NCBI GenBank assembly: GCA_035628995.1
Contig: DASPIR010000023.1
Coordinates: forward strand, 372,001-436,000
DNA: 64,000 nucleotides
Reading direction: 5' to 3'
From: Clostridia bacterium
GTDB taxonomy: Bacteria > Bacillota > Clostridia > Lutisporales > Lutisporaceae
The notes under the pieces were generated by a model. It saw only the letters and a program-made list of their open reading frames with translations. It had not been told where the DNA came from and did not search any database. Below, piece after piece: positions 2,935 through 24,854 of this stretch (positions are counted from its first letter, which is position 1; each line of letters begins with the position of its first letter). A program made the position numbers and the translations under genes.

Positions 2935-3165
2935 AATAAAAACTCCCGCCCCGAAAGGGGCGAGAGACATTCTCGCGGTTCCACCCTGATTTGAACTCTG
3001 GATTATAACGTAATCAACGTCAAGGCTTACTAAAGCTGTACGCTTTTTCAACCCGCTGCTACGAGGTGGTCTTCAAACAATTCATCCAAGGAATGCTTTC
3101 AGCCTTTGACATTCCCTCTCTTTTGGAGTACCTTGCTTTACTCGTCCTCATCACTGCATTTAAAT
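2935..3165 (-). promoter_or_regulatory. T-box leader of thrS (tRNA-Thr sensing)
   Basis: On the minus strand the T-box core AGGGTGGAACCGCG is at 2974-2987. It is followed by a GC-rich hairpin (CTCTCGCCCC/GGGGCGGGAG, about 2943-2966) and a T-tract, which is the intrinsic terminator. Upstream lies a Stem I region with GATGAGGACGAGTA and the apical GGCTGAAAG loop. An ACC in the specifier position fits threonine. Uncharged tRNA-Thr would pair with the T-box bulge and favour antitermination. The exact 5' end is inferred. Confidence 0.95.
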
Positions 3166-3211: not shown

Positions 3212-3808
3212 TTAAAGAATTCTTATGATTATAGCCTGAAATAGACCTATTATTCCACCCAGAAGTCCCCCAAGCAGTTCAATATACTTCAATTCCTTGG
3301 ACGTAAGGCCTAATATTAGCTTTTCCATATTTTCCAGCTCGAGTTCGTCAATTTTTTCTTCTACCATTTCACCAATCTTGATTTTATGTACCGAATTGTT
3401 TATTATACCATCAATAGAGCTGTTTAGAATAGACATGGCATCTTTATTAATCTGCTCCTCGAAATAGTCAATTATTTTGCTTTTAATAGAATATGGAATA
3501 ATGGATGGGATTTTATAATCTATAACTTTAAGCAGCTTTTCCTTTATTATGCATAAAGCTTCCTGTTTGTTCTGCTCCGTCACAAGCTTATCAAAAATCT
3601 CATGTATAGAGATAAGCTCTTGCTCTACAACCTCTCCAATACTTTTTGAAATATCATGTCGCCTTTTGGGTATAAGTCCTTGTATTGTAATATTCAAAAG
3701 TGGCAATTTAAAAGGTTTTATAGGCCTGAAAAGCATTTTTATCGCAAGTACGTTTGTAAGCCAGCCGATTATTGCTCCTACAACTATCAGAAATATTGCT
3801 TCATACAT
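3212..3808 (-). CDS. DUF445 family membrane protein
   Basis: This 198-residue protein has an N-terminal membrane helix (AIFLIVVGAIIGWLTNVLAI) followed by the FRPIKPFKL and QGLIPKRRHDISKSIGE motifs typical of DUF445 (YheB-like), a charged helical middle, and a C-terminal hydrophobic segment (LLGGIIGLFQAIIIRIL). Family members are membrane-anchored proteins of unclear function. ATG 3808 follows GGGGG. It lies 52 nt downstream of ytxC, separated by a strong hairpin, and could be co-transcribed with it. Confidence 0.85.
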   Translation of the reverse strand: MYEAIFLIVVGAIIGWLTNVLAIKMLFRPIKPFKLPLLNITIQGLIPKRRHDISKSIGEVVEQELISIHEIFDKLVTEQNKQEALCIIKEKLLKVIDYKIPSIIPYSIKSKIIDYFEEQINKDAMSILNSSIDGIINNSVHKIKIGEMVEEKIDELELENMEKLILGLTSKELKYIELLGGLLGGIIGLFQAIIIRIL

Positions 3809-12222: not shown

Positions 12223-12249
12223 TATTCTAATTTATTCAAAGGTTTCTAT

Positions 12250-12516
12250 TCTTGGATAGAGGTGCGCTTTTAAATAGTAAGGATATTGTTTTATTAGGGT
12301 GTGGTTTCCCGAATATCCATAAAGGTAAAAGCGCCGAAGGCAGAAATACACCACTATTTTCTGACCTGGTCCTTTCGCTAACAGCGTCTGGACTGTCACT
12401 GGAGTGTTAATGCACAACCCCCAGTGGAGAGCTATACATGAATAAGTGTGTTTATTCAGCTTTATTCTGAATAGATATATTTATCATGTCAGCTTTTAAA
12501 AAAAAGCTGACTTTTT
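12250..12516 (+). promoter_or_regulatory. Lysine riboswitch (L-box) with terminator
   Basis: The conserved L-box blocks are present in order: AGAGGTGCGC (about 12258), AGTAAGGATA, AAAGCGCCGAAGGCAG (about 12328) and GTCTGGACTGTCACTGGAG (about 12385). The expression platform ends in the hairpin GTCAGCTTTT/AAAAGCTGAC (12488-12511) plus TTTTT. Lysine binding should terminate transcription before asd. The 5' boundary is approximate. Confidence 0.96.
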
Positions 12517-22825: not shown

Positions 22826-22860
22826 TAAAAAATACCTCCTATTTTAGGAGGTATTTTTTA
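22826..22860. terminator. Terminator after the PdaB-like gene
   Basis: AAAAAATACCTCCT/AGGAGGTATTTTTT perfect 14-bp arms overlapping the last codon of the deacetylase. Symmetric, so possibly bidirectional. Confidence 0.9.
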
Positions 22861-23628
22861 TCTCAATAACTTCTGCATTCCGGTATGGTCTATATAGTAA
22901 TTTTCCTTATAAATCAGCTCTGATATCGGCACTACCTTATACCCTTCCTTCTGAAGGTTCTCCAGCACTATCGGAAGTGCATCCTTTGTATAGGTTGCAT
23001 TGTTGTGGAAAAGTACAATTGAGCCGTTCTTCACCTTTGAAAGTACGCGCTTGACTATTGCATCAGCTCCATAGTCTTTGTAGTCAAGAGAGTCAACATC
23101 CCATTGAATGATCTGTATGCCCATTTCTCTGGAGGTTTCTATAAGCCTGTTGTTATAGTCTCCAAATGGAGGACGGAACAGAGTAACCTTTTTATTTGTA
23201 ATTGCTTCTATCTTTTTTGAAGTCTTTCCCAGCTCCTCAATAATCTGCTCCTTTGACAGCTGCGACATATGCGGGTGCTTTGCGGAATGATTGCCTACCT
23301 CGTGGCCTTCCTCATCAATTCTCTTTACCATTTCCGGATATTTATCAATCCAAAAACCGACTAGGAAGAAGGTAGTCTTTACCTCATACTTTTTGAGTAT
23401 TGCAAGCAGGTCTTCTGTGTAATTGGCCCCCCATGCTGCATCAAAAGAAATTGCGACCTTCTTTTCCGATGTATCCACACAGTATATCGGAAGCTGCCTG
23501 CTGTTATCCTTGAAAGCATCCAGCAGGTGATTGTAGCTTGCATAATTGTATATTAGTGAAATGCTGACTATCACCATCACCAGCATAATATTTATGGCTT
23601 TGTAGCTTCCTTTAAATCTTAGCTTCAC
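22858..23628 (-). CDS. pdaB: Polysaccharide deacetylase, sporulation PdaB-like
   Basis: A 256-residue protein with an N-terminal membrane/signal helix (AINIMLVMVIVSISLIYNYA) and a NodB domain. Motif 1 is AISFDAAWGA, where the second metal Asp of TFDD is replaced, as is usual in the PdaB group. Motif 2 is GNHSAKHPHM and motif 3 RPPFGDYN. PdaB is needed for stable spore cortex late in sporulation. The start is GTG 23628 with GGAGG. Single-gene unit. Confidence 0.85.
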   Translation of the reverse strand: MKLRFKGSYKAINIMLVMVIVSISLIYNYASYNHLLDAFKDNSRQLPIYCVDTSEKKVAISFDAAWGANYTEDLLAILKKYEVKTTFFLVGFWIDKYPEMVKRIDEEGHEVGNHSAKHPHMSQLSKEQIIEELGKTSKKIEAITNKKVTLFRPPFGDYNNRLIETSREMGIQIIQWDVDSLDYKDYGADAIVKRVLSKVKNGSIVLFHNNATYTKDALPIVLENLQKEGYKVVPISELIYKENYYIDHTGMQKLLR

Positions 23629-23817: not shown

Positions 23818-24357
23818 ATGGCCGAAGTGCACGAAAAGACCTTTGATATTAAGGTCAGGCTTACGATGCTGGATTATTTCCGTTATTACTTTTCACTTTT
23901 CAATCTAAAAAAATCAGGTTTAGTCGTCAATATAATGTGCGCAATTATTGTTATAATCTATACCTTAAGTTTAGTTTCATTGCTATACATTACATCCTCT
24001 ACCCAAGTTTTTGACTGGGGAACAGTTAAGGGTATAACTCTTGACCTGGTAATAATGATTTTGTTCTCAGCTCCCTTTATAAGAACATATCTTATTGCGT
24101 TCAAGGATGCAAAAACACATAAGGTCCTTGATAAGGACATCTATATAACTATTACTGCGGACAAGTTCATCGTATCTACAAATGACACAAAGCTGGAGTA
24201 TTCGTGGAAAAAGATGTATAAGGTATTTGATTTCTCCCATGGTTTTGCACTCTTCATTGATAAGAAGGATTTGGCTTTCGTCCTGCCAAAGAGATACTTC
24301 AAGAACAAGGAACAGATAAAATTCGTAAAAGAAATTATAGCAAAATATAAGAAGTAG
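23818..24357 (+). CDS. YcxB-like membrane protein
   Basis: A 179-residue protein with two membrane helices (LVVNIMCAIIVIIYTLSLVSLL and TLDLVIMILFSAPFI) and a C-terminal YcxB-like domain (ITADKFIVSTNDTKLEYSWKKMYKVFDFSHGFALFI, FVLPKRYF). The family is common in Firmicutes and its function is unknown. The SD GGGGGTG precedes ATG 23818. Alone on the plus strand, with a terminator directly after the stop. Confidence 0.8.
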   Translation: MAEVHEKTFDIKVRLTMLDYFRYYFSLFNLKKSGLVVNIMCAIIVIIYTLSLVSLLYITSSTQVFDWGTVKGITLDLVIMILFSAPFIRTYLIAFKDAKTHKVLDKDIYITITADKFIVSTNDTKLEYSWKKMYKVFDFSHGFALFIDKKDLAFVLPKRYFKNKEQIKFVKEIIAKYKK

Positions 24358-24388
24358 AAAAAAATCGGAGCATCAGCTCCGATTTTTT
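24357..24388. terminator. Bidirectional terminator between YcxB-like gene and minus-strand RNA
   Basis: AAAATCGGAGC/GCTCCGATTTTTT with a 4-nt loop. It can end both the plus-strand gene and the minus-strand microprotein/RNA transcript. Confidence 0.9.
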
Positions 24389-24403: not shown

Positions 24404-24506
24404 GGACACTCATATCATCGCACCACTATCTTGGGATAGCGGGACCGGCCTTGCAGTATTAGCGGTCGTCGCCTGACAACCGCACCATGCTCCTCCATGA
24501 GTGTCC
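24404..24506 (-). ncRNA. Structured RNA element of unknown class
   Basis: On the minus strand GGACACTCAT pairs perfectly with ATGAGTGTCC and encloses 83 nt. Inside are a 9-bp stem GCGGTTGTC/GACGACCGC and an 8-bp stem CCGCTATC/GATAGTGG. Both inner stems contain a pair that is G-U on the minus strand but A-C on the plus strand, so the minus strand is the likely RNA. It is GC-rich against AT-rich flanks. It follows the stop of a 57-residue ORF by 23 nt and precedes a terminator. I do not recognise the class. Confidence 0.6.
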
Positions 24507-24529
24507 GGGCATTATGTCCCAAGCATCAA

Positions 24530-24703
24530 TCATGATATGATTGTATGTACCAGCTCTATGACTTCCTTTGGAGTAAATTTCGCGTAATTAACCAGTAAAA
24601 GCGCTGTTAATGCTAAAGCAACCAACCTGATCAATGTTGAGAACGTAAGGGTGTTTATCACTTCAAACACATTCTGCGATGTTTTCTTACAACTGCGTTT
24701 CAT
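24530..24703 (-). CDS. 57-residue membrane microprotein
   Basis: The ORF begins MKRSCKKTSQNVFEVINTL, continues with one hydrophobic helix (LIRLVALALTALLLVNYA) and ends KFTPKEVIELVHTIIS. The basic N-terminus suggests an N-in membrane topology. AAGGAGGG lies 13 nt before the ATG, a little far. I do not know the family. It is followed directly by the structured RNA and a shared terminator, so the two are probably one transcript. Confidence 0.6.
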   Translation of the reverse strand: MKRSCKKTSQNVFEVINTLTFSTLIRLVALALTALLLVNYAKFTPKEVIELVHTIIS

Positions 24704-24747
24704 AGTGACTTTTTTTCCCTCCTTTCACACCAGGCCGGGAGGTGCTT

Positions 24748-24766
24748 AAACAAGAATATCTTGTTT
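24748..24766. promoter_or_regulatory. Operator-like dyad AAACAAGA-N3-TCTTGTTT
   Basis: Perfect 8-bp arms with a 3-bp centre, 45 bp upstream of the microprotein start. The spacing suits a dimeric repressor site, but no matching regulator is nearby. Confidence 0.4.
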
Positions 24767-24854
24767 ACTATATTATACCTCCTATTTTATTCCAGTCAAA
24801 GGAGGAAGAGTACTATTTTTACTGCGACTTTATTACCATTTTTATACATTTATA

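Follow-up and report, generated by a model that had tools for sequence, protein, structure and literature searches.

On the basis of its sequence and that of its relatives, a single small transcription unit on the minus strand of the window (the whole 64,000-nt stretch of DNA that was analyzed) encodes a short peptide between two selected RNA parts. The unit comprises a promoter, a 62-nt leader, a 57-codon open reading frame (ORF), and a 103-nt RNA that forms a three-way junction, and it is a real, new, and narrowly distributed orphan without a known family. The best reading, which stands about an even chance of being correct, is that leader, ORF, and 3′ element would be transcribed from their own minus-strand promoter as one mRNA of ~0.4 kb. 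In this view the message would be translation-gated, its product a membrane microprotein, and its 3′ fold protective or regulatory, a design that resembles that of a type I toxin mRNA. The function of the peptide itself is a guess. The features are as follows, the names of the mnmM-like, DUF2007-like, and YcxB genes being taken from family searches.

25842-25276: mnmM-like methyltransferase gene
25253-24855: DUF2007-like gene
24810..24848, minus strand: 39-nt conserved upstream box TGTATAAAAATGGTAATAAAGTCNNNGTAAAAATAGTAC, with an imperfect 14-nt direct repeat inside
24772..24799, minus strand: promoter TTGACT-16-TATAAT
24704..24765, minus strand: 62-nt 5′ leader, opening with a 5′-terminal hairpin, AACAAG/CUUGUU
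24717..24745, minus strand: 29-nt invariant block GCACCTCCCGGCCTGGTGTGAAAGGAGGG, identical in three species
24742-24737, minus strand: anti-SD CCTCCC, inside the invariant block and upstream of the SD
24725-24717, minus strand: SD AAAGGAGGG, inside the invariant block
24530..24703, minus strand: 57-codon ORF, with a basic N-terminus, one membrane helix, and an amphipathic C-terminal helix
23 nt, minus strand: spacer between the ORF and the 103-nt element
24404..24506, minus strand: 103-nt structured 3′ element, a three-way junction with conserved GGAGGAG and AGGCCGGU segments
24359..24388, minus strand: intrinsic terminator, bidirectional by sequence and common to the convergent YcxB gene
23818-24357, plus strand: YcxB gene, convergent to the unit
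22858-23628: pdaB-like sporulation deacetylase gene

The unit was found by DNA search in four of the six genomes of the genus (G000, G001, G002, and G003), with the relatives 75–79% identical to it. A covariance model of the 3′ element recovers the same four genomes only among the 22 genomes of the order that were searched. Nothing further was found in 391 genomes of the class or 398 of the phylum, two samples (some 780 further Bacillota genomes) that overlap partly and in which stricter filters lose weak matches. The class-level DNA match L005 falls within a long, unrelated ORF and is attributed to chance. The peptide is absent from viral contigs and was recovered from the GTDB collection in relatives of the genus only, while the DNA of the unit is absent from the plasmids and phages searched. 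Since four of the six genomes in the genus carry it, at one site, with no copies on plasmids or phages or outside the genus, the unit is, as judged from these searches, a genus-limited gene at a fixed site and not a repeat or a mobile copy.

Three further species of the genus carry orthologues, all at the one syntenic locus. In the window, the unit is flanked by the mnmM-like and DUF2007-like genes on one side and by the convergent YcxB gene on the other. In G001–G003 it immediately precedes the pdaB-like gene; in G004 and G005 this neighborhood, pdaB-like gene included, is found without the unit. A PdaB tree does not resolve the clade order within the genus and hence the gain or loss of the unit. 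The earlier note had tied its proposal to conservation of both parts in close relatives, and both were found in the three additional species. Its treatment of peptide and RNA as one unit likewise held, as four species retain the two jointly at one syntenic site, with coding substitutions in one and stem covariation in the other.

Several features of this neighborhood are of separate interest. The YcxB-like membrane protein gene adjoins the unit, on the opposite strand, in the source genome only, and no relative of it was found in seven genomes of the family. A DUF2007-like gene between the mnmM-like and pdaB-like genes is present in the window, where it has an added C-terminal membrane helix, and in G005 (L054 1032-1310); it is missing at that place in G002–G004, and the G001 contig ends before the site. 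The pdaB-like gene is divided in two relatives of different genera, at identical codons in both (..SFDAAWG; L038 and L054 in G005, L044 and L055 in G009); a large serine recombinase gene directly precedes its 3′ half, and its 5′ half lies on a separate contig. By sequence, these splits resemble those made by skin-type intervening elements, in this case within pdaB. In several relatives, whether or not they have the RNA unit, the DNA upstream of the pdaB-like gene contains a palindrome with an A+T core, GCGAAATT..AATTTCGC, whose outer arms show compensatory changes (L022 about 3382-3415, L032 about 1354-1386, and L003 about 1435-1465); the window has no copy of it.

The ORF was noted earlier as a short frame with one membrane helix, and the 57 codons at 24703-24530 indeed encode one strongly hydrophobic segment (residues ~20–38). 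The best 19-residue Kyte–Doolittle mean is 2.1 for the window peptide and 2.4 for that of G003. Structure prediction from the single sequence yields two helices (pLDDT 77), a long one at residues 5–40 that holds the hydrophobic stretch and a short C-terminal one after it, and the peptide would presumably insert into the membrane. Between the window and G003, the ORF differs by 10, 3, and 14 changes at codon positions 1, 2, and 3, respectively. The substitutions are conservative (K/R, I/V/L, S/T) and create no stop. Their score exceeds that of randomly placed changes both for this pair (P = 0.0014) and for the window and G002 over the 3′ part (P = 0.0006). The substitution pattern therefore indicates that the ORF is truly coding and under protein-level selection. 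In G002, a 1-nt frameshift interrupts the ORF after about codon 17 and may stem from decay or from an assembly error; past this point, the frame still shows protein-level constraint (P = 0.016).

The 103-nt element is present at 24506-24404 on the minus strand, as described earlier, with a perfect 10-bp closing helix and inner stems of 9 bp (GCGGUUGUC/GACGACCGC) and 8 bp (CCGCUAUC/GAUAGUGG). The closing helix alone proves nothing because the window contains 12 perfect 10-bp inverted repeats spanning 60–200 nt, against 10.5 expected; among those 12, the repeat of the element is the only one with a GC content of at least 50%. The element was correctly described as richer in GC than its surroundings (57% versus 40% for the window, a value equaled by 0.3% of 103-nt windows). 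Folding also bears out the proposed preference for the minus strand, with an MFE of −47.3 kcal/mol (z = −4.3, 0 of 200 shuffles as low) compared to −37.3 for the plus strand (z = −2.9).

Across four sequences, two of which are close relatives (98% in PdaB), 97% of the stem cells are paired, a figure that falls to 48.5% or less on sliding the partners. Changes on both sides occur in 4 of 25 pairs (6 cells), and the covariation score is 0.347, versus 0.240 ± 0.032 for shuffled and at most 0.12 for slid partners. The compensatory changes fall in both inner stems, while the closing helix hardly varies. RNAalifold, unaided, returns the same three helices and a short GCCU/AGGC extension of the second stem. 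The G002 element has one mismatch in each of two stems. Support from these comparisons for structural selection on the RNA is good, not overwhelming. The invariant G-rich segments of the element are unpaired or weakly paired, and a coding reading of the element is disfavored by 1-nt indels at three places.

The description of the locus as an orphan stands, with no match in Rfam, Pfam, NCBIfam, or PHROGs. No Rfam covariance model scores above its gathering threshold over the unit; the best match at E ≤ 5, Leu_leader (score 30.6, threshold 50), is due to the terminator hairpin. Elsewhere in the window, a T-box leader (2953-3163, minus strand) and a lysine riboswitch (12249-12442, plus strand) are above the Rfam threshold. 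The 57-aa peptide has no profile match in Pfam, NCBIfam, or PHROGs and no credible match in the PDB, and its sole match in PADLOC is DrmC (E 0.014), over a helix. The weak peptide matches L010–L021 (E 0.02–0.7) lie for the most part in frames that are long or broken and were set aside.

The best-conserved part of the unit is the leader, which the earlier reading missed. Across three full-length copies, identical columns make up 90% of the leader, 76% of the ORF, and 48% of the spacer; the corresponding 60% for the 3′ element is a low estimate, as the alignment is not structure-aware. Between G003 and G002, leader identity is 97%. Even with up to 3 mismatches allowed, the core of the invariant block GCACCTCCCGGCCTGGTGTGAAAGGAGGG turns up nowhere else in the 391 genomes sampled from the class. 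The block harbors both the SD, which is a long match to the expected 3′ end of the 16S rRNA, and the upstream CCTCCC, which mimics the anti-SD. The SD had been called good, and it is strong; however, it lies 13–14 nt from the start codon, 14 nt from the ATG in the window, a longer spacing than usual, and is predicted to be sequestered by the leader. Folding pairs it with CCTCCC in all three species. This helix never varies, so that it lacks covariation support and offers nothing on which to base a covariation test, and its invariance could reflect something other than SD pairing. The simplest reading of the arrangement is a translation gate, with the leader predicted to be closed.

A contact between the two ends of the message is not supported. 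A 7-bp pairing of the leader CCGGCCU with AGGCCGG in the 3′ element is invariant on both sides, but 158 of 1000 shuffles match it, and leader–element duplex energies are not significant versus shuffles in two of three species.

Upstream of the leader, the TATAAT of the promoter is conserved in the relatives but the −35 sequence (TTGACT) is not, and the position of the −10 box would place the transcript start near 24765. The 39-nt box at 24810..24848, a possible activator site, is retained in three species, unlike the DNA that separates it from the −10. No regulon of the box was found in six genomes; with up to 3 mismatches allowed, the box is unique in each genome. At the other end, the terminator said to end both ORF and RNA is present at 24388-24359, but it adjoins the YcxB gene, and the elements of the relatives have nothing equivalent beside them. 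The terminator is outside the conserved unit and specific to the arrangement in this genome.

It is hypothesized that a short, stable mRNA is made from the upstream promoter, to which an activator may be recruited by the conserved box. The CCUCCC of the leader would pair with the SD and keep translation low until the SD is freed by some event, such as processing, a trans factor, or refolding involving the 3′ element. The peptide would then be made in bursts only and go to the membrane. The three-way junction would serve as a structured 3′ UTR that most likely protects the 3′ end, and it may help set whether the leader is open or closed. The earlier note had offered two readings, a riboregulated mRNA and a toxin-like peptide with a regulatory RNA. 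More of the evidence favors the former, but its most probable switch lies in the SD/anti-SD leader rather than in the 3′ element.

The toxin-like reading can be extended to a type I toxin–antitoxin locus in which a membrane toxin is encoded by an mRNA kept inert through leader occlusion and folding, the antisense RNA being unrecognizable by consensus scans. This is unlikely. The peptide is of suitable size (57 residues) with one membrane helix and charged flanks, the SD is predicted to be occluded, the ends are stable, and the SD is a long match to the expected 16S 3′ end. The hok mRNA is likewise activated by 3′-end processing and refolding (PMC8309996). However, the antisense partner was not found: no plus-strand promoter-like site occurs within the unit in the window by consensus scan, which may miss such a site, none was seen in G003, and the single candidate of G002 is not shared. 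In addition, the unit is single-copy at a fixed locus, matches no known protein family, and was found on no plasmid or phage. The unit would function like the mRNA half of a type I toxin–antitoxin system, but because the antisense partner was sought and not found, and any toxicity is putative, it is not filed as a member.

Equally doubtful is a dual-function arrangement in which the RNA is the main product, acting in trans through pairing of the leader and the GGAGGAG and AGGCCGGU segments with target mRNAs, and the ORF is secondary. Conservation of the leader above that of the ORF and the weakly paired invariant G-rich segments are in its favor, but the ORF shows clear protein-level selection, and the best-conserved part, the SD with its complement, agrees with control of this ORF in cis, with no need for a target. 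It is quite improbable that the unit is a recently acquired, decaying selfish or phage-derived fragment without present function. Its confinement to one genus, its absence from the syntenic site in G004 and G005, and the frameshift in G002 would suit such an origin, but selection is visible on both peptide and RNA, and there is one copy per genome at one site, with no phage or plasmid relative. Slightly less probable still is a self-contained, riboswitch-like microprotein gene in which the three-way junction acts as a sensor within the 3′ UTR, opening or closing the SD/anti-SD leader 200 nt upstream, so that a toxin-like membrane peptide would be under cis control alone, without an antisense antitoxin. 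Least probable of all is a cis-regulatory leader of the pdaB-like gene. In its favor, the element of G001, G002, and G003 precedes that gene by ~200 nt and is co-oriented with it, and no good U-tract terminator was found in the intervening DNA, but the window departs from this arrangement with a terminator and the opposite-strand YcxB gene in between, and G004 and G005 carry the gene without the element.

The unit clearly exemplifies a taxonomically restricted gene with one coding part and two RNA parts that selection has held together. Such genes escape both gene finders and Rfam. If the peptide is indeed a toxin under cis control alone, the type I toxin design would extend to loci without an antisense RNA. 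The narrow range of the unit limits the wider reach of the finding.

Among known systems, dual-function sRNAs (SR1/SR1P, SgrS/SgrT, and RNAIII) also combine a structured small RNA with a short conserved ORF, but here control of the unit's own ORF accounts for the conserved leader, and no target is known. The Bacillota type I toxins (TxpA/BsrG, YonT, Fst, and the C. difficile CD2517.1 type) share the size class, the one membrane helix, and the long SD match. In contrast to these, the unit has no family match and no convergent antisense gene, and the basic residues of its peptide are mainly N-terminal, unlike the K-rich tail that is a feature of the family. Compared to hok/Sok-type systems (Hok, AapA, Ldr, and TisB), the unit lacks a recognized antisense RNA, sequence relation, an upstream overlapping mok-like ORF, and demonstrated 5′–3′ pairing, and it is a chromosomal single copy in one clostridial genus. 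With these systems it nevertheless shares a short mRNA for a one-helix membrane peptide, in which an occluded SD (here predicted) and structured ends favor a stable, translationally inert message.
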